IMG/VR virus record: IMGVR_UViG_3300020222_000094
Span: 1-34,861 of that record
Direction: 5' to 3' (one strand)
Length of the DNA: 34,861 nucleotides
Source of the DNA: a virus
In this document: piece by piece, positions 3,603 to 34,861 of the stretch
Layout of the letters: every line of letters starts with the position of its first letter
Position numbering within the stretch: the first letter of the stretch is position 1
Notes under the pieces: generated by a model
The model's input: only the letters and a program-made list of their open reading frames with translations
What the model was told of the DNA's origin: nothing
Databases searched by the model: none
Position numbers and translations under genes: made by a program

Positions 3603-3808
3603 AGCCGCATCTCCGAATAGTAAGCCTCCAGTTCTTCGTTTGCGGCATTTATCTCGCGGCGGCGCTGGTCTACCAACTCGCAGTGAATTTTAGAGCGCAG
3701 CCAGAAGTCGGTGACTTCCTCTTTCCCCGCATAAAGCCTGAACACAGGACTGTCGTCTACCCAATCTCGTACAAAAACCTTGTAACCCAATATGCTAACT
3801 ATTTTCAT
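3599..3808 (-). CDS. Small hypothetical protein, 69 aa
   Basis: The start at 3806-3808 is preferred over the longer frame from 3838 because it overlaps the upstream stop (ATGA) and follows GGAGAGG. The 69-residue product begins MKIVSILGYKVFVRDW and ends in a charged helix. No family is recognised. Confidence 0.6.
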   Translation of the reverse strand: MKIVSILGYKVFVRDWVDDSPVFRLYAGKEEVTDFWLRSKIHCELVDQRRREINAANEELEAYYSEMRL

Positions 3809-4053
3809 GTTCCTCTCCGATTTAGTAGTCTTAGACACAACGCTTTACAACCACAATGCGGCTCAGCCTTCCAGTCTTTTACCTCGCCCCAATTTCTTTC
3901 CATCGCCTCCACCATCGACTTGCGGATTAACTTGCAGGATTCAGACATTGCAAGAGCCGTTCTGCACTCCGCACACCTGATGTCAAAGACCCCAGGAAAG
4001 CCCTCAGACCGACTATAACAGTCTGGGCAGGAAGATGCAACAGTCTCTGTCAT
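3805..4053 (-). CDS. Small Cys-rich (zinc-binding) protein, 82 aa
   Basis: CPDC at residues 9-12, CAEC at 27-30, then a third group CGCKALC near the C-terminus suggest one or two structural zinc sites. It is coupled by ATGA to the replication gene upstream and to the gene downstream. A role in DNA or RNA binding during replication is plausible from its position but unproven. Confidence 0.6.
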   Translation of the reverse strand: MTETVASSCPDCYSRSEGFPGVFDIRCAECRTALAMSESCKLIRKSMVEAMERNWGEVKDWKAEPHCGCKALCLRLLNRRGT

Positions 4054-4364
4054 ATTTTCTCCGCGAAAACTTTTCTAAACGCGGCTATCTTCTCTGAGTT
4101 CGGTTGTGGTCTATAGGTTAACTGTTGTTGCTCGAAATACTTGGGAGACCTCGAGCAAAGATCCTTGAACTGTATAAGATTTGGTGCGCGTTCCGGCAAA
4201 ATCGTAAGCGCGTATTTGATCTGGTCAATCGTAAATCCGCGCAACTCATCAGCCCAGGCTCCCTTTACCTCGTCTAGCGGCATACCGGAAAACTTTTTGT
4301 CCCATTCGGAACCGTAGACCACAAGCAATTTGTTCCACAAAGCGTCTATAGCCTTCAAGTTCAT
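4050..4364 (-). CDS. Replication P-like (helicase-loader type) protein
   Basis: I prefer the ATG at 4362-4364, which overlaps the stop of the DUF1376 gene (ATGA), over the longer frame from 4430. The 104-residue protein contains LWNKLLVVYGSEWDKKF and RAPNLIQFKDLCSRSP. These patterns occur in phage P-like proteins, which recruit the host replicative helicase. Its place directly after an initiator-like DUF1376 gene mirrors the O-P order of lambdoid phages. Confidence 0.6.
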   Translation of the reverse strand: MNLKAIDALWNKLLVVYGSEWDKKFSGMPLDEVKGAWADELRGFTIDQIKYALTILPERAPNLIQFKDLCSRSPKYFEQQQLTYRPQPNSEKIAAFRKVFAEKI

Positions 4365-5110
4365 AGTATCTTCAACCTTTCCGATTTTTGACCAGGCTCG
4401 GGCCACTTGCGACCCGTCATTTCTTCCCACCGCTTGCGTTTAGCAAGTTCGTCTTTCTCCGCAAACGATAGAGCCTTATCAGACTGTTTGTCTTTTACCC
4501 ACTCAGCCTTAAACCCTCGCCAACCTCGCAGCACACATTCCCGCAAAGTAGCCTCTAAAGACCACCCAGCCTTTTTTGCTTCTCGGTATATGCCATCAAT
4601 TGCGGTCTGGGTTATTGCTGCTCTCACAGACTTTCTGTGCTGGCAAAAGTCTTTCCACAAGTCTTCAGGAATCCCCTGTGGACAACTAACCGCCTTTAGG
4701 CGCGTAATGTCTTTTATTGGTTCTTGGTTTATGGTTCTTGGTTTATGGTTAGCATTGCCTTCGGATTGCGTTTGCAATGCGTTCGCATGGGATTGGCTCC
4801 ATCTGGCGTTTGCGGAGTCTGTTGCACTCTTAGACTTCTTGCGAAATGCCGCAATAACCTTGTCACATCCCCTGTGGATAAGTAAGCCACCATCCTGCTC
4901 GAAGAAGTCTTTAATCACATTTTCATACGCCCGCTTTTCTTCCGCAGTCCGAACGCAATGCGTTCGCATAAGCTGGTCGTGATCCGACTTTAGTGGGCCA
5001 CCGTTGAGGTAGTAGGTGTCTATAAGTTGACGATAGATTCCATGCTCAAGCAACCCAAGATGTTGAGCATCCCTGCGATAGTCGCCAATGTTGAACTGAT
5101 AGTAGTGCAA
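4361..5110 (-). CDS. DUF1376 replication-initiator-like protein
   Basis: The 249-residue protein starts with TTG at 5108-5110, six bases after a perfect AAGGAG. Residues 1-95 match DUF1376 (YYQFNIGDYRRDAQHLGLLEHGIYRQLID), a winged-helix-like domain found in phage replication proteins. A linker of about 30 polar residues leads to a C-terminal helical domain with LWKDFCQHRKS and LRGWRGFKAEW. It is followed by the P-like gene, so it probably binds the origin. The gene is preceded by an extended -10 promoter and a structured ~136-base leader, which may control it. Confidence 0.7.
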   Translation of the reverse strand: MHYYQFNIGDYRRDAQHLGLLEHGIYRQLIDTYYLNGGPLKSDHDQLMRTHCVRTAEEKRAYENVIKDFFEQDGGLLIHRGCDKVIAAFRKKSKSATDSANARWSQSHANALQTQSEGNANHKPRTINQEPIKDITRLKAVSCPQGIPEDLWKDFCQHRKSVRAAITQTAIDGIYREAKKAGWSLEATLRECVLRGWRGFKAEWVKDKQSDKALSFAEKDELAKRKRWEEMTGRKWPEPGQKSERLKIL

Positions 5111-5277: not shown

Positions 5278-6219
5278 CTAAACAGGTTTGCCTCGGAAAT
5301 AGGCCGTTTCGCCGATTACCTCTACCAATTCTGGCGGTAGTAACATTCCATCCTCGTCGAACGTCAGCACCGCAAACCCACTTGCCCAGGGAACAGGGTT
5401 GCCCTCAAGGTAGGCAAACTGCTCGCCATAAGGCTCCGCAAGCGTTCCGGTATCTACCCCATACCTTCTCCCGTTGTAATCCCCAAAAGGCGTAACCTGC
5501 AACTTATGTAGGTGTCCGGTCACAATATTTCGCCCTGATTTCAAAACATTGTTCCAAGTCGCGTGAATGCCGTTATGCCACCTGTGCTTGATAACAGTGT
5601 TGCCATTTACGTGCATCACATATCCGAGATGCCAGCCTGGGAAGTAGTCGAACAAGTCTGCACCAAAAGCCCCTTCAACCTCTGGGGCATTTATCTTCAT
5701 ATAACGCCACAGCCTGGTGTCGTGGTTGCCATACAGCCAGAATAAAGTCGCATTGTGTGCGGCCTTCTCGATCTCTCCGAGTCTGTCCTGACAAACCTCA
5801 AGTTCCTGTCGAACCGTGGGCGTGTCGTTTTTGTAAAGAGGGTCGTGGCGGCTTACTCTAGCCCCATCGAAAACATCCCCGTTTAAGACTACCGCGTGAG
5901 GCTTGAGCTGCTTGCACAACTTGATAAAGGCTTTGTGTGCTGTAGTAGCCTCTCCAGGCCAGTAGTGTGCGTCTGAGGCCACGAGGATCGTCTGTTTCTT
6001 TGCCTCGTAACTTATTTCATTTTTCCGAACATATGAAACAACAACGCTGTTCTGTTTTGCCGCATAACTCTCTAGTGTGATGCCTAGTCGGTGTTCCAGC
6101 CTGCGGCGGCGGTTGTAGACCACCTTTTCCGAGCAATCCAGTATTTCCGCAACCCGTGCCGGACTGCCTGTTTCGCGGAACAGTTGGATAAATTCCTGAT
6201 CGGTACACTTGGCTTTCAT
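5278..6219 (-). CDS. HTH-fused metallophosphoesterase
   Basis: The 313-residue protein has an N-terminal helix-turn-helix (about residues 5-45, with ARVAEILDCSEKVVYNRRRR). It is followed by a calcineurin-like phosphoesterase domain from about residue 76. The five blocks are present: SDAH 82-85, GDVFDG 114-119, GNHD 164-167, KHRWHNG 211-217 and GHLHK 235-239. The site should bind two metals and cleave phosphoesters; the natural substrate is unknown. The HTH-phosphoesterase pairing occurs in several phages and suggests action on DNA or on a nucleotide. Its start overlaps the SprT stop by one base. Confidence 0.8.
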   Translation of the reverse strand: MKAKCTDQEFIQLFRETGSPARVAEILDCSEKVVYNRRRRLEHRLGITLESYAAKQNSVVVSYVRKNEISYEAKKQTILVASDAHYWPGEATTAHKAFIKLCKQLKPHAVVLNGDVFDGARVSRHDPLYKNDTPTVRQELEVCQDRLGEIEKAAHNATLFWLYGNHDTRLWRYMKINAPEVEGAFGADLFDYFPGWHLGYVMHVNGNTVIKHRWHNGIHATWNNVLKSGRNIVTGHLHKLQVTPFGDYNGRRYGVDTGTLAEPYGEQFAYLEGNPVPWASGFAVLTFDEDGMLLPPELVEVIGETAYFRGKPV

Positions 6220-6554
6220 TACAACTCCTTTGGGTCGAACCCCAGTTCTTTAGCCACCGCATGAGCCAGCTCGAGGAATCGCTCGTCGTGCTGATCCCAG
6301 TCTGGGTAGTTAGAGAGATGGAGTTTTTGGTGGATCATTTCGTGCGCCATCGTCCGCAGCAGGGTATCCAGATGCCCGTGCTTTGCGGTGGATATTGTGA
6401 TGATGCCGCGCTCGTCGTACTCACCGAAATGGCTAGTCCAAGCACGGACGCGAAACTCTACCTCTTGCGAAGGTGGGAGCTTCCAGGCTTTTATCGGTGG
6501 CAGGCTTAATAGGAACTCATAACTTGCCACGCAAGCGGCGCGAGTTATCTTCAC
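6219..6554 (-). CDS. SprT-like zinc metallopeptidase
   Basis: This 111-residue protein starts with GTG at 6552-6554. It carries the zinc-peptidase motif HEMIH at residues 71-75 (TMAHEMIHQKLH), with a conserved downstream HDERFLELA region. SprT-like phage proteins are shorter than Spartan-type proteases and lack a DNA-binding tail. Cleavage of DNA-bound proteins is the family's best-known role, but this small form has no proven substrate. It is the first gene of the leftward early unit, divergent from the recombination genes. Confidence 0.75.
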   Translation of the reverse strand: MKITRAACVASYEFLLSLPPIKAWKLPPSQEVEFRVRAWTSHFGEYDERGIITISTAKHGHLDTLLRTMAHEMIHQKLHLSNYPDWDQHDERFLELAHAVAKELGFDPKEL

Positions 6555-6573
6555 AAGGCGAACCTATCACAAA

Positions 6574-6588
6574 ATGATTGCAAATCAT
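6574..6588. promoter_or_regulatory. Operator-like palindrome in the divergent gap
   Basis: ATGATT-GCA-AATCAT is a perfect 6-bp inverted repeat with a 3-base centre. It lies between the SprT gene and the rightward promoter, where a repressor could act on both units. No cognate regulator can be assigned. The rest of the 158-base gap (6555-6712) holds the promoter at 6638-6666 and no further structure I can support. Confidence 0.35.
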
Positions 6589-6637
6589 AGACTTACCAAT
6601 ACAACCCCAATAGTTAAGAAAGTTTGACCGATACTGT

Positions 6638-6666
6638 TTGACATCTCCCAAAAAGACTGTTATATT
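6638..6666 (+). promoter_or_regulatory. Sigma-70 promoter of the recombination unit
   Basis: TTGACA (6638-6643), a 17-base spacer and TATATT (6661-6666) give 6 of 6 and 5 of 6 matches to consensus. The start site would be near 6673, about 40 bases before the first gene. This is the strongest promoter sequence I see in the window and is likely an early promoter read by host polymerase. Confidence 0.85.
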
Positions 6667-6712
6667 TCTCTCACGGTCGATGTCTCCAGACCGGATGAAA
6701 AAGGAGAAAGTC

Positions 6713-10440: not shown

Positions 10441-10621
10441 CCCATGCGGTAAAGCCGATATACGCCCCTACAACCGCCCCTATGAAGATGTAAAATGGCC
10501 CTGCTATTGCACCCAGTTGCGGTGACTCTGTGACCAACAGAAGCAAAGGAAACCCGATACCAGCCAGCATCGAGATCCACGCCATCTTGCGTCTGTTTTT
10601 CCACCGGTCAACCTCGTTCAT
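10331..10621 (-). CDS. Two-helix membrane protein, 96 aa
   Basis: Two hydrophobic segments lie at about residues 13-31 and 36-59, followed by a hydrophilic His/Asp/Gly/Arg-rich tail. The gene overlaps the chaperone stop by four bases and Rz by 110. Its position in the lysis block suggests a holin, antiholin or pinholin, but small membrane proteins are hard to assign. The tail lies in the Rz overlap and may be constrained by it. Confidence 0.6.
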   Translation of the reverse strand: MNEVDRWKNRRKMAWISMLAGIGFPLLLLVTESPQLGAIAGPFYIFIGAVVGAYIGFTAWDDKNVMEHKDHSHHSRGRIYDRGYDSGGDDSEVQKR

Positions 10622-11043
10622 TCGGGCGCATCAGGCCAACTTACATTCCAAGGGAACCCTTCTTGATCGGGCATATCTCTCAGAGCCTGCCGATATGCTG
10701 CCCAGGCTTCTTTGTCTACAGGTGCATCTGCTAACTGCGTCCAGTCGCTTGCCTGAAGTCTCAGCGTTCTATTGACACGCACTCGATGTGCCTGGGCATC
10801 TATCTCGGCCTGCTGCTCAAGTGCAAACTCTTGGTCATCTAAAGTTTTTAAGAACCCGTCGATCTGCTCTGCGTCATCGTCACATTCCCCGATAAACTCT
10901 GGCACTTCCGTTGGGTATTTGCGCTCAAGAGCAAACAGATATTGCAATCCCTTGATCTTTGGGAAATGCGGCCCATGCTTGGCAGGCTCTTTTGCTACCG
11001 ATACCTGGGTAACTGAGTCTACATAAGTAAATTTAATCTTCAT
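10618..11043 (-). CDS. Tail-fibre assembly chaperone
   Basis: The 141-residue protein ends with a clear Phage_tail_APC signature: ASDWTQLADAPVDKEAWAAY, then RQALRDMPDQEGFPWNVSWP. The N-terminal part is beta-rich and specific to this phage. Family members help fold or trimerise tail-fibre tips. Its ATG overlaps the reverse-transcriptase stop (ATGA), so it is co-translated with the DGR. It is separated from its presumed client, the fibre, only by avd, the template and the RT. Confidence 0.8.
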   Translation of the reverse strand: MKIKFTYVDSVTQVSVAKEPAKHGPHFPKIKGLQYLFALERKYPTEVPEFIGECDDDAEQIDGFLKTLDDQEFALEQQAEIDAQAHRVRVNRTLRLQASDWTQLADAPVDKEAWAAYRQALRDMPDQEGFPWNVSWPDAPE

Positions 11044-12152
11044 GCGTAACCCTTCCTTAGAATCACTTTATCAAGTTTCGGTGTAAACCACCATCCAAAA
11101 CGGCTTAACAATATTGCTATTTTCTCGCGCTCTGCCCAGGTCTTAGCCTGCCTAAATATCCCTAGATAACTGTTCGCCACCGCACGAATGTCTTTTTTAG
11201 GCTCTTGCTTTTCTGACATCTGCAATAGTTTGTTTTTTGCCCTGCGTACCGTTTCTTGCCGTATGTACCTTGCTCTTGGCCTAACCACAAACCCAAGCAT
11301 CTTAAAGCCTTTATCTAAGCTGTTTATTTCTACCTTGTTAGGGTGGAAGTGTATATGTAAGTTCTCTCGTATGAAGTCATCCATTGGCTTGATATACGAG
11401 TACAGCTTTTGCGGGTCTTTATCAAAAATTACAATGTCATCGACATACCGCACCATGTACTTAATTCCTAGCTGGTGCTTCGCAAACTGATCTAGCTCGT
11501 TCAAATAAATGTTCGCAAAGAACTGGCTCGATAAGTTACCTATCGGCAATCCATGCCCTTTAGCTGCAAACAAACTCTTGTGCGGCGGTATCAGTTCTAA
11601 TAGCTTAGGATCGCTCTTAACATAAACGTTCACCGTTGGATCGTGGAACAAAATCTGATTAGCCAAAGCCATCCATTCCGGTTCTGATACTTTGTTTGCG
11701 ATCAAACGAGACAAAATGTCTTTTCGGATACTGACAAAATAATTAGCAACATCCAGCTTTAGAAAGTAACCTTTCTCACTGTAGTCTTTAGTCATGCTTC
11801 GGCATAACTGCTCGGCCCGATCTACTGCTCTATGCGTTCCTTTCTTCGGAATACAGGCGTACGAATCATAAATAAAACTATTGTGAAACCTATCTCTGAT
11901 CTTGTTGTACAAAAGATGATGCACAATTCGATCTCTAAAATTCGCTGCCCAGATTTCTCTAATCTTAGGTTTTTCAACAAGGAAACAGATTGATCTTCCT
12001 ATTACGTAGGTTTCTTCTTTCAGGTCGTAATACAAGTTCATCAAATTCTTTTCGAGTCTTTCCTCAAATATCCTGGCGTTCCATGTATTGCGCTTTGTCT
12101 TGCGGCAATCATAGTAAGACTGGAAAAGATTAAAAACCGTAAAATCAAGCAC
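11040..12152 (-). CDS. DGR reverse transcriptase
   Basis: The 370-residue RT has motif A LKLDVANYF (131-139), the DGR-type motif GLPIGNLSSQ (201-210) and the catalytic YVDD (236-239). A later thumb region contains FKMLGFVV. The [ILV]GNxxSQ form distinguishes DGR enzymes from group II intron and retron RTs. It should copy the template RNA at 12169-12270 with errors at adenines. The start is GTG at 12150-12152, nine bases after a GGAGG that directly abuts the template repeat. The stop overlaps the chaperone start. No maturase or endonuclease domain is visible. Confidence 0.95.
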   Translation of the reverse strand: MLDFTVFNLFQSYYDCRKTKRNTWNARIFEERLEKNLMNLYYDLKEETYVIGRSICFLVEKPKIREIWAANFRDRIVHHLLYNKIRDRFHNSFIYDSYACIPKKGTHRAVDRAEQLCRSMTKDYSEKGYFLKLDVANYFVSIRKDILSRLIANKVSEPEWMALANQILFHDPTVNVYVKSDPKLLELIPPHKSLFAAKGHGLPIGNLSSQFFANIYLNELDQFAKHQLGIKYMVRYVDDIVIFDKDPQKLYSYIKPMDDFIRENLHIHFHPNKVEINSLDKGFKMLGFVVRPRARYIRQETVRRAKNKLLQMSEKQEPKKDIRAVANSYLGIFRQAKTWAEREKIAILLSRFGWWFTPKLDKVILRKGYA

Positions 12153-12392
12153 AGGACATCGCCTCCGGTCGCCTTACTGCCCTAACGTAGTTGTTATTGT
12201 TCTTATTGTTGTTGTTCTGGTTGCCAGGGTTGCTCGTGTTGTAGTTCTGGTTCCAAGCGTTCGTGGTGCTATGCCGTACACTCACACATCGGTCAGCAGA
12301 ATCCTCCGCTGACAAACTGGCTATAAAGCCCTTTCGGTGGTTTCCCAACGGGTACGGCCCGATCAGATGGACGCTCTTAGACACCTTGGCCT
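12153..12392 (-). ncRNA. DGR template RNA region
   Basis: The 240 bases between avd and the RT contain the template repeat and about 120 bases of upstream sequence. In DGRs such a transcript, with avd and RT, is the substrate for mutagenic cDNA synthesis. A frame beginning GTG at 12384 stays open through the whole segment into the RT start, but it lacks coding support outside the template. I treat the region as RNA, not as a gene. Confidence 0.75.
12169..12279 (-). repeat. DGR template repeat (TR)
   Basis: On the leftward strand the TR is rich in AAC and AAT codons, which would read NQNNNNKNNNNY before the constant YVRAVRR end. It aligns to the 3' end of the fibre gene. The 22 bases 12169-12190 are identical to 12779-12800, and the strong match runs to 12270, with weaker similarity to about 12279. 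Sixteen of the 17 substitutions I count fall at TR adenines; the exception is a C to G at 12228. AAY codons cannot mutate into stops by adenine changes, though the single AAG can. Confidence 0.95.
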
Positions 12393-12752
12393 CTAAGATT
12401 CTGCCAACGATGCTGTGTGCTTAATCCAACCTTGTGCTTGCCGACCAAGGCTATCCGTCAAAAACACGATTTCTGAAAACTGCTTGACGTTAATGATTCG
12501 CAAATCTTTTGTTAGCCTGACTAGCAGATCAATAACCTCTATTCTTTCAAGTATTCGCCCTGCGTGTTCGATCCTTTCTTTTTTTGTTGCGTTGGCCTTG
12601 AAGATAAAAACAACAAGATCAATGACCTCATTCCTAATCTTTTCCCCAAGGCTGTACTTAAAATCTCTAGGGAATCCTTTTGTCACACGCACGACAATTT
12701 CCAACAGTTCGTAAGCTGTTTTGTAAATTGGTAAGTGCTTTATCTGCGCCAT
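12393..12752 (-). CDS. avd: DGR accessory variability determinant (Avd)
   Basis: The 119-residue protein is all-helical and belongs to the four-helix-bundle/Avd family, with LPIYKTAYELLEIVVRV at the start, then FKYSLGEKIRNEVIDLVVFI and a final VKQFSEIVFLTDSLG. Avd forms a basic pentamer that binds the RT and template RNA. It sits between the variable repeat and the template. There is no ordinary ribosome-binding site; the 14 bases upstream are part of an 8-bp tandem repeat, so coupling to fibre translation is likely. Confidence 0.9.
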   Translation of the reverse strand: MAQIKHLPIYKTAYELLEIVVRVTKGFPRDFKYSLGEKIRNEVIDLVVFIFKANATKKERIEHAGRILERIEVIDLLVRLTKDLRIINVKQFSEIVFLTDSLGRQAQGWIKHTASLAES

Positions 12753-12776
12753 AAAGGATTAAAGGATTAAATGATT
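12753..12776. repeat. 8-bp tandem repeat at the VR-avd junction
   Basis: Three consecutive 8-mers, AAAGGATT, AAAGGATT and AAATGATT on the plus strand, span the fibre stop and the avd upstream region. On the coding strand they read TTTAATCC-like. They replace any visible ribosome-binding site for avd and lie just past the constant 3' end of the variable repeat. Confidence 0.7.
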
Positions 12777-14458
12777 GATCGCCTTACTGCCCTAACGTAG
12801 TAGCTATCGTTCTTAACGCCGGGGTGGGAGTTCTGGTAGCCAGCGAAGCTCGTGTAGTAGTACTGGAACCAAGCGCTCGTGGTGCTGTATTCCGTACTCG
12901 ACCAATAAGCATCAGAGCCAAAGGTCATGGCCTCTGCGCCGCCAGACTGGAAAGCCGCTACGGAGGTTTGTGCAGGCGACCCAGAGGTATAGGCGACACC
13001 TTGAGGATCGGAGTTGTAATTAAGACCATGTTGTGTACCACCTGTTCCAATACTGCCTAAATTTGTGTAATTGGGCGTTGGACTGTTGGGCCTATCTGCA
13101 GTGGTGTAATTGTTACTCGTAACCGGCTTAAGGTTTCGGTAAATCAGCTCTAGCTCATCCCTTGCAGGTAGATACCAGTCAGAGTAACCGCCGATGGTTA
13201 AGCCATCGCAGTAGTGCGCCGCAGGGTAGACGGTAGAGTTTCCATCAGCGACCATAGCCGCAGTTGCTTTCAGCCCCTCAGTAAGCGTGCCAGTAGCTGC
13301 TGGAGCCGCCGTGTTAGCGTTTTTGTACTGTTTGCTTGAGTTTTCACCCGAGGATTTAGGCGCAACAATGACACGGTACTTTGCCATCACAGACCAGTCT
13401 GTAAGCGTTCCAGACCCGTTTACCGAGGTGACGTTTACAGTAAGCGAGGTTCCGGTAGAAGCCGTTACAGTACCGATCATGCGGTTGGTAGAAGGGTTGG
13501 CTCGACTTCTAACCTCAACGGCCTGACCCGCGTAAAACAATGGCGCAGCATCTGTAACCGTAAAAGTCTTAGACCCTGTTCCTATCGTTGTTGAAGTAGC
13601 AGACTGCGTGACCTGATTCCAAATAAGGCCAGTGTAGAAGCCGCCTTCAAATGAATTTCCGATGCTTGGAGTTGCCGCAGGCGTAGCAATAAAATTGTTA
13701 AACGCTGCTGCGGTATCAAACTCTGTTGGTGCGGAATACTCCGAATAGGTATCGTCAATATCACGATACCGAACCCGCCAATAATACGTTGTAGAAACTT
13801 GAAGATTTCCAGAAGGAACAACTTGAGTTACACCAATTCCCAAAACCTCACCAGAGTCGTAAACGGTAGTTCCAAAACCGGAAGAGGTACTTATCTGCCA
13901 TTGACTTGATTTTTGAGTCTTTCCATAAAGACTGTAATAAGTTGATCCAGTAAGTGTTGGCGTTTCTAAAATCCCCGTAGCTTCATCCGCAGGGGATACA
14001 TTTGTTGGAGTTAGAATTTCTGCATTACCCGCAGTCTGCCAAGACAGTGTTCCAGAGCCGTTTGTAGACAGCGCCTGACCGTTCGTACCATCCGCAGCAG
14101 GTAGTGTCCAGGTGACGTTAGCCGCGACTGTTGCGGGAGACTGGAAAGCCACATAATGCGACGAATCAGAGTCTGCAAACCGCAGATCACTTTGTGCGCG
14201 GAGAGTAACATCTGAAGACATAATCACCGCACCGCCAAAGGTCGCAGTGCTATTTATCTGCGCCGTGGTAGCGACAATCTTTGCGGAGGTAAGCGTATCT
14301 CCAGATGATCCGTCTAGGAACTCTTTTAGCTGCGCCATCTGCTCGCGGATAGCGTTGTTTACATCACTCGGGGCCATGCCCTCCGCTATGTTTATACCGC
14401 CTATGTCTGTATTGTTGCCGGCGGTCGAGCTGTACTCTGAAATCTTGTTTTTTGACAT
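12767..14458 (-). CDS. Tail fibre/receptor-binding protein, DGR target
   Basis: The 563-residue protein starts with a fibre-anchor-like segment (SEYSSTAGNNTDIGGINIAE, then NNAIREQMAQLKEF). A beta-repeat stalk follows, with FADSDSSHYVAFQSP and TWTLPAADGTNGQ. Next is a fibronectin-III-like domain (about residues 150-250, ending TYYWRVRYRD). A DUF1566/Lcl domain closes it from about residue 360, with GGYSDWYLPARDELELIYR and YWSSTEYSTTSAW. The last 38 residues include the variable repeat, in a C-type-lectin-like context as in other DGR targets. It is the presumed adhesin. It follows the last ejection protein by 11 bases. Confidence 0.9.
   Translation of the reverse strand: MSKNKISEYSSTAGNNTDIGGINIAEGMAPSDVNNAIREQMAQLKEFLDGSSGDTLTSAKIVATTAQINSTATFGGAVIMSSDVTLRAQSDLRFADSDSSHYVAFQSPATVAANVTWTLPAADGTNGQALSTNGSGTLSWQTAGNAEILTPTNVSPADEATGILETPTLTGSTYYSLYGKTQKSSQWQISTSSGFGTTVYDSGEVLGIGVTQVVPSGNLQVSTTYYWRVRYRDIDDTYSEYSAPTEFDTAAAFNNFIATPAATPSIGNSFEGGFYTGLIWNQVTQSATSTTIGTGSKTFTVTDAAPLFYAGQAVEVRSRANPSTNRMIGTVTASTGTSLTVNVTSVNGSGTLTDWSVMAKYRVIVAPKSSGENSSKQYKNANTAAPAATGTLTEGLKATAAMVADGNSTVYPAAHYCDGLTIGGYSDWYLPARDELELIYRNLKPVTSNNYTTADRPNSPTPNYTNLGSIGTGGTQHGLNYNSDPQGVAYTSGSPAQTSVAAFQSGGAEAMTFGSDAYWSSTEYSTTSAWFQYYYTSFAGYQNSHPGVKNDSYYVRAVRRSII
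12779..12886 (-). repeat. DGR variable repeat (VR)
   Basis: This segment encodes TTSAWFQYYYTSFAGYQN and onwards to YVRAVRR at the fibre C-terminus. It is 6 bases longer than the TR. The extra codons CCC and GGC lie in a run TCC CAC CCC GGC GTT opposite TR codons AAC AAC AAT. All of these keep the third base expected of AAC or AAT. The constant 3' end (12779-12800) is the likely initiation-of-mutagenic-homing site. Confidence 0.95.
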
Positions 14459-34633: not shown

Positions 34634-34861
34634 TTACTCCTCTTCCCAAGCATCGCAGACGTTCTCTTTAGCGCACTTGAACTCGAACACACCGCAGAAA
34701 ACCTCGTCTTTACCCAGGCCGCAGCCCTTTAGCTTCTCGCCGTACTCACAGTTCCCGCACTTCTTGGTTCCATCGCTTGGGCCATAGTTTGCGGTGAGAA
34801 TAGCTTTCTGCTTGTTGCCCTTGTTGATGATCTCGTCTTCAGTAGCAAGCGGACACTCAGA
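34634..34861 (-). CDS. Cys-rich small protein, C-terminal part (starts at left end)
   Basis: This is the right-hand part of the gene that begins at 204 in the left end. Reading from the terminal repeat into unique sequence, it gives KGCGLGKDEVFCGVFEFKC then KENVCDAWEEE and a TAA at 34634-34636. The CxxC of the repeat plus four Cys here suggest a metal-binding fold. The gene proves in-frame continuity across the map origin. Confidence 0.75.
   Translation of the reverse strand, partial: SECPLATEDEIINKGNKQKAILTANYGPSDGTKKCGNCEYGEKLKGCGLGKDEVFCGVFEFKCAKENVCDAWEEE
34727..34861. repeat. Right copy of terminal direct repeat
   Basis: Identical to bases 1-135 except for T at 34735 where the left copy has G. 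The mismatch lies nine bases from the edge of the left copy, where read support is often weakest, or it may reflect a population variant. Confidence 0.9.

Follow-up and report, generated by a model that had tools for sequence, protein, structure and literature searches.

The DGR locus

The DNA analysed here is the IMG/VR virus record IMGVR_UViG_3300020222_000094, and we refer to its whole length of 34,861 nt as the window, or W when loci are compared. On the minus strand at 11040-12886 there is a complete diversity-generating retroelement (DGR), made up of the variable repeat (VR) in the Lcl_C/DUF1566 tip of a fibre gene, avd, the template repeat (TR) and a reverse transcriptase (RT) of DGR type. 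An earlier note, made from the sequence alone, had reported all parts of a DGR in this order, and each is indeed on the minus strand where the note had placed it (Table 1).

Table 1. Features of the DGR locus in the window, by descending position
Feature	Position	Strand	Basis
DGR target, fibre protein of 563 aa	12767..14458	-	Pfam Lcl_C, Ig_Rha78A_N
VR, 108 nt, 3' end of target gene	12779..12886	-	Alignment to TR
Sole non-A substitution, TR C / VR G, CCT to GCT	12844	-	Codon alignment
6-nt insertion in VR, CCC GGC	12818..12823	-	Codon third base C
Invariant 3' end of VR (IMH-like), identical to TR 12169-12189	12779..12799	-	Exact match
avd, accessory variability determinant of 119 aa	12393..12752	-	Pfam bAvd, phrog_3206
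Leader strand A1, GCATCGT, pairs with TR 3' flank (weaker in family)	12407..12413	-	Pairing analysis
Structured RNA leader, 5' of and abutting TR, overlaps final 17 nt of avd	12267..12409	-	Rfam RT-15 (RF03018), covariance
Leader strand A2, CTGATCG, pairs with TR 3' border	12360..12366	-	Pairing analysis
TR, 102 nt, with AAC/AAT tract	12169..12270	-	Alignment to VR
Strand B2, CGACCGG, final 3 nt of TR and flank, partner of A2	12165..12171	-	Pairing analysis
Strand B1, GCGATGT, pairs with A1, immediately upstream of RT start	12156..12162	-	Pairing analysis
DGR RT, 370 aa, motifs GLPIGNLSSQ and RYVDD, start 16 nt past TR	11040..12152	-	RVT_1, phrog_1423
Tail-fibre assembly chaperone	10618..11043	-	Pfam Phage_tail_APC, E=5e-22

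The 21-nt IMH-like 3' end common to VR and TR has exactly two exact matches in the window, with none expected by chance, and since it occurs nowhere else there is one TR and one VR; a search of the whole window for additional VRs found none. The chaperone gene adjoins the RT gene in the related IMG/VR phages L004 and L005 also, and travels with the DGR module. More than 120 related loci have the identical layout, and as a DGR the locus is ordinary, being of a known kind with the expected target.

The RT matches RVT_1 (E=2.5e-17) and phrog_1423 (E=1e-102), and the YVDD and GNLSSQ motifs read by the earlier note are intact. In 10 aligned sequences the catalytic residues are invariant except for S/T in GNL[ST]SQ, and the DGR-type GxxxSQ motif is present. 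The best PDB match is 8ub7, named by its depositors only "Reverse transcriptase", which we take to be the DGR enzyme of Bordetella phage BPP-1. A scan with the RT of locus L167 found nothing. In the case of Avd there are matches to Pfam bAvd (E=2.5e-14), to phrog_3206, "Avd protein of DGR" (E=9e-27), and to NCBIfam DivGenRetAVD (E=1.6e-14, under the cut-off of that model), and a search by sequence for a solved structure gave no match. The RVT_1, bAvd, phrog_3206 and Lcl_C assignments, the nearest structures and the adenine bias described below together bear out the claim of a complete DGR.

The target fibre and the type of phage

The N-terminal 70 or so residues of the target are common to SU10-like phages with different fibre ends, and are followed by an Ig-like domain (Ig_Rha78A_N) and the Lcl_C/DUF1566 tip. 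The Lcl_C match (E=7e-9) is above the Pfam cut-off, and by both sequence and fold the best match is the C-terminal domain of Legionella Lcl (PDB 8q4e), in agreement with the DUF1566/C-type-lectin-like target proposed earlier. The AF2 model of the C-terminal 317 aa has a pLDDT of 81. Foldseek also puts Lcl_C first with this model, but at E=0.013 and with many chance V-ATPase matches, so that the fold match taken alone is modest, perhaps owing to an extra beta domain in the model.

The window also encodes an SU10-type capsid protein (SU10_MCP, E=5e-101), portal (SU10_portal, E=2e-219) and a DNA-ejection-like protein, as one would expect of the short-tailed phage named in the earlier note. Judged by these genes and the family in which they place it, the virion would be short-tailed. 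The DGR may provide for switching of host range, as the earlier note proposed.

Substitutions at template adenines

An independent codon alignment of VR with TR gave exactly the count of the earlier note, 17 substitutions with 16 at template adenines (Fisher p=2.6e-6). All 16 are in AAC or AAT codons, which lend themselves to diversification and in which 16 of the 28 adenines are mutated, against 0 of 16 template adenines outside such codons (p=7e-5), and the single other change is the C>G of Table 1. Among 262 TR-VR pairs, nearly all from relatives, 3505 of the 3564 mismatches are at template adenines, a share somewhat favoured by the aligner, which tolerates mismatches at A.

The earlier note concluded that mutagenic homing has occurred, and proposed that VRs be compared among relatives of the RT. 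Concerted evolution of TR and VR now adds to the case, as in W, L004 and L005 the VRs track the TRs of their own genomes. VR and own TR are equal at 30 of the 33 diagnostic cells across the three, and homing has thus taken place after these lineages split. The transfer is one-way from TR to VR, its direction being read from the adenine bias, and synonymous changes are few in the fixed VR codons, at 1-2 out of 12-16, when elsewhere they affect about half.

The VR is longer than the TR by the 6-nt insertion, a feature absent from the earlier note. The codons of the insertion and its neighbours retain C as third base, as AAC does, and the insertion fits two extra AAC units, gained by template slippage and later mutagenised at A. 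That AAC repeats may slip by multiples of three has been proposed previously (PMC12875486), and we do not put forward whole-unit AAC indels as a novelty for that reason.

Other histories of the two repeats can be considered. Ordinary gene duplication with positive selection, and no reverse transcription, has nothing in its favour beyond the bare possibility, and is hardly credible given that changes are limited to template adenines while other sites track between the copies, that RT and avd genes adjoin, and that this A-confined pattern recurs in independent loci, more than 120 of them. The DGR could be old and now inactive in the W lineage, with a frozen VR. The only other assemblies that span the DGR, L002 and L003, have the same VR as W, no VR polymorphism was found in other assemblies (other contigs of the species, at 99.7-99.95%, end before the DGR), and the length difference and the one non-A change could be read in the same way. 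However W, L002 and L003 do not differ at any of the 11,110 bp compared and may therefore be one strain, the RT and avd genes are intact with the catalytic motif kept, and the VR has kept in step with the TR of its genome after W parted from L004 and L005, and we regard loss of activity as improbable. With regard to the longer VR, a TR shortened by two AAC units, or a second TR allele as the donor in homing, would yield sequences identical to those from slippage, and the TR tract is a simple repeat. Against this, the TR tract is of equal length in W, L004 and L005, the VRs of L004 and L005 share that length, and a one-way gain of whole AAC/AAT units is also seen in L006, L022, L108, L154, L167 and L169; we think a shortened TR or a second allele less likely than not.

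A structured RNA between avd and TR

Between avd and TR is a structured RNA that was absent from the earlier note. It matches Rfam RT-15 (RF03018) over the full length at 54 bits (E=1e-10), a divergent match under the gathering threshold of 82, while relatives L007, L008, L010, L012, L035 and L036 score above that threshold. All 20 DGR-bearing genomes searched had RT-15 over its threshold, at 21 places in total, as against none of the 14 control genomes. The helices are the same and in the same place as in the Rfam RNA, although the W leader is without an inner arm of that model, and joint alignment and a joint model show that the two share covarying structure. Our purpose-built covariance model R1 gives the W leader 133 bits and matches 86 of 95 sources, once each and on the RT strand.

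Folding of the W leader as a single sequence is only moderately stable (z=-2.1), and the case for the leader rests on covariation. Compensatory changes are present at 31 of 34 pairs in 24 sequences, and the covariation of 0.770 compares with 0.256 for shuffled and at most 0.16 for slid alignments. In this RT clade the leader is about 145-190 nt and ends at the start of TR, the distance having a median of -1 nt and being from -7 to +7 in 79 of 80 loci. A scan for promoters gave no candidate site, and one for terminators had no excess of candidates over shuffles. A literature search on RT-15, or on any DGR with a structured RNA, found no DGR-leader paper, in a coverage that did not extend to the presumed defining paper of RT-15.

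In the comparison of loci the leader also pairs with the 3' border of TR. A2-B2 is 87% paired in register and no more than 40% on sliding, over 39 loci, whereas the outer helix A1-B1, at 57% in register and 31-46% slid, is weak when the whole family is considered. Pairing of leaders with the TR border of their own locus exceeds that across loci (9.22 v 7.50, p<1e-4 in a permutation that leaves relatedness in).

Comparison with BPP-1 and other DGRs

BPP-1 is the system in which the DGR mechanism has been worked out. Its DGR (mtd, avd, TR, brt) is like W in gene order, RT family, Avd and A-specific TR-VR differences, and in having one TR and one VR, the latter C-terminal in a phage receptor-binding protein, but the target is Mtd and not of Lcl_C/DUF1566 type. 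The spacing also differs, with a TR-RT gap of 159 nt by our own mapping (144 nt by the record annotation) against 16 nt in W, and an avd-TR gap of 0 against 122 nt. In BPP-1 a structured 3' spacer of about 140 nt between TR and RT recruits RT-Avd and holds the priming adenine (PMC12875486). W has only its 16 nt there and no such spacer, and we found no covarying 5' leader in BPP-1. Synonymous change is not slowed over RT codons 1-25, and so gives no sign of a 3' spacer within the RT gene, a weak test with three sequences only. Nor was there a stable hairpin like the BPP-1 DNA stem-loop just past the VR in W, L004, L005 or L178.

Burkholderia phage Magia, Pseudomonas phages Haboob, Cruim01, phPA-G and LPPA56 and Shewanella phage vB_Sb_QDWS have RTs 43-47% identical to that of W, and share with it avd, a TR by the RT, A-specific VRs and a leader between avd and TR. 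They differ in having at least two VRs, and in those of their records with annotation the DGR has recombination, integrase or methylase genes around it and is not part of a fibre module.

The template RNA

We infer that the template RNA includes the leader, and put at about 0.8 the probability that this DGR rewrites the C-type-lectin-like fibre tip of an SU10-like phage, with leader and TR forming one template RNA. By analogy with the BPP-1 pathway the RT-Avd complex would copy the TR RNA into cDNA mutagenised at A, which would replace the VR and give progeny with differing receptor-binding tips, and slippage on the AAC tract would have added two codons to the tip as well. TR would be a loop between the leader helices and the leader/TR-3' helix, and the leader could present the TR 3' end to RT-Avd and bound the copied stretch, tasks that in BPP-1 fall to the 3' spacer together with the 3' end of avd. 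Our guess is that the adenine of the conserved leader motif AUC(G/U)GG, at the leader/TR-3' junction, could prime the cDNA. We lean, somewhat cautiously, to the broader proposal that a clade of DGRs (at least 80 loci) has a mirror-image template RNA, in which a 5' leader, the RT-15 RNA, and not a 3' spacer, folds onto the TR 3' border, limits the mutagenised stretch at either end and contains the priming site.

It could be argued that the DGR is real but the leader a translational regulator of RT, hiding the ribosome-binding site by pairing before the RT start, as B2 and B1 are directly upstream of that start and in the window span a Shine-Dalgarno-like GGAGG. However the leader end coincides with the TR boundary in nearly all loci, and the best-conserved pairing is at the final TR bases and not at a consistent Shine-Dalgarno, and we think regulation an unlikely explanation of the leader, although template and translation roles may coexist.

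The point of interest is thus the template RNA, as a large clade is without the 3' spacer and has a covarying RNA on the opposite side that ends at the template. If the mirror-image reading is true, the BPP-1 mechanism stands beside at least one other design, a family of structured RNAs known by the name of its neighbour gains a function, and the questions of boundary and priming become testable in a second system.

Exchange of the fibre module

L004 and L005 (RT 83 and 82% identical to W) and L178 are homologous to W over the whole module of target C-terminus, avd, leader, TR and RT, at 75% nucleotide identity for L004 and L005. All three differ from W in the target N-terminus, and L004 is a tape-measure (long-tailed) phage, with L005 and L178 looking alike in this. 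The fibre module shows exchange of the DGR together with the tip between short-tailed and long-tailed phages.

The element and its variable repeat

The earlier note read this stretch as carrying a complete diversity-generating retroelement (DGR), and both its reading of the sequence and the kind of element were right, with all of the named parts found on the minus strand.

Features of the DGR locus
Feature	Position	Strand	Remark
Target (fibre gene)	12767-14458	minus	DGR target, carries VR
Variable repeat (VR)	12779-12886	minus	inside target
avd	12393-12752	minus	
Leader RNA	12267-12409	minus	Rfam RT-15 (RF03018) match, E=1e-10, below curated threshold
Template repeat (TR)	12169-12270	minus	
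Reverse transcriptase (RT)	11040-12152	minus	

Independent codon alignment gave the same count as reported earlier, 17 substitutions, of which 16 hit a template A (Fisher p=2.6e-6), and the changed adenines are indeed confined to AAC or AAT codons (16/28 there, 0/16 for other A's). TR and VR have a common 21-nt 3' end, present nowhere else in an exact search of the window. In the PDB comparison the neighbour of the RT is 8ub7, deposited as "Reverse transcriptase", which we take to be the BPP-1 DGR enzyme. Judged as a DGR the element is ordinary, and it is the layout of the template RNA in this clade that is worth following.

One feature absent from the earlier account is that VR exceeds TR by 6 nt. 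Between fixed codons TR has AAC AAC AAC AAT and VR has AAC TCC CAC CCC GGC GTT. As the third-place C (or T) is kept in every VR codon of this stretch, we read the extra bases as two added AAC units later mutagenised at A. One-way gain of whole AAC/AAT units is also seen in six other loci (L006, L022, L108, L154, L167 and L169), with three units gained in L167. That AAC repeats slip in steps of three is an idea already published (PMC12875486).

Relatives and concerted evolution

Two contigs from other metagenomes match the window at 100% identity over 11,110 bp, VR included. The related loci L004 and L005 (RT identity 83% and 82%), with scans of viral and genome contigs, led to about 150 loci, and among 262 TR-VR pairs a template A underlies 3505 of the 3564 mismatches. 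The comparison of VRs among relatives, proposed earlier, shows that homing has occurred: at sites where the TRs of the window, L004 and L005 differ, VR matches the TR of its own genome in 30 of 33 cells. Synonymous change is almost nil in the fixed VR codons, yet present in the rest of the gene. The pattern is one of concerted evolution, and copying therefore postdates the split of the three lineages. The second and later VRs of L052, L083, L097, L120 and L157 have frame-shifting indels of 1-2 nt relative to TR, and are possibly decaying targets.

The leader RNA and the template layout

RT-15 has clear matches at the corresponding place in known phages. With a leader model built from 13 sequences, 86 of 95 sources were found to have one copy each, and in the 80 loci with TR mapped independently the leader ends a median of -1 nt from the TR start (7 nt or less in 79). 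In an alignment of 24 sequences there are compensatory changes in 31 of 34 leader pairs, and covariation is 0.770 as against 0.256 shuffled and at most 0.16 slid, the score being favoured by fitting of the alignment to the model, with 7 of the 24 also among its 13 sequences. Between L004 and L005, synonymous change is scarce (1/16) in the last 19 avd codons (12393-12449), as expected where the leader overlaps avd.

Joint folding of leader, TR and RT start predicts that the leader pairs with the 3' border of TR. In 39 other loci, pairing of the inner helix, of leader strand A2 with TR border B2, reaches 87% in register, and slid registers give no more than 40%; the outer helix, A1-B1, is weaker. 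Pairing within a locus exceeds that between loci (9.22 vs 7.50, p<1e-4, n=49).

The simplest reading is that leader and TR would form one template RNA, with TR as a loop between the leader helices. The sequences themselves show the parts, the A bias, the concerted evolution, and the covariation and position of the leader; we infer that the leader may recruit RT-Avd, set boundaries and take part in priming. The main rival is that the leader acts as a brake on RT translation, and its 3' partner strands do precede the RT start. The layout differs from that of BPP-1, where the 3' spacer recruits RT-Avd and provides the priming adenine, and synthesis is halted by the 3' end of avd (PMC12875486). 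In the window the only conserved RNA found is 5' of TR, reaching to its 3' end. The avd-TR gap is 122 nt as against none in BPP-1, and the TR-RT gap 16 nt as against 144-159 nt.

The leader model had no match in BPP-1 or five other DGR phages. Nor did it match L265 (Bacteroides phage F2), which has window-like gaps (avd-TR 128 nt, TR-RT 33 nt) and perhaps a 5' leader unrelated to that of the window. L170 (Candidatus Taylorbacteria), also with no leader match, has a different DGR layout, in which VR is upstream of the RT start and a TR-like repeat follows that start at a distance of about 1.3 kb.

The phage and its fibre module

The first 70 or so residues of the target are common to the SU10-like phages L181, L182 and L183, relatives of the window phage, whose fibre C-termini differ and in whose loci (~6001-6700) the DGR leader was not found. 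Within 10618-13720, the target C-terminus, avd, leader, TR and RT are homologous in L004, L005 and L178, and the tail chaperone in L004 and L005; L004 has a clear tape-measure protein, L005 and L178 have similar long tail genes, and the fibre N-terminus in all three differs from that of the window. Since the fibre N-terminus and the DGR, tip and chaperone thus match different sets of phages, the DGR and target tip seem, from these homologies, to be exchanged as a module among phages whose tails differ. L180 has the Lcl_C fibre tip of the window at 3659-4657, with VRAVRRSII as its last residues; neither avd nor leader nor RT was found on this 8.1 kb contig, which is either a target without adjoining DGR or a fragment.

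The window phage encodes an SU10-type capsid, portal and scaffold and a DNA-ejection-like protein. Its genome is probably complete at about 34.7 kb, because the ends share a 135 bp repeat (1-135 and 34727-34861) with a single mismatch, and the junction is bridged by two further contigs, L186 and L260.
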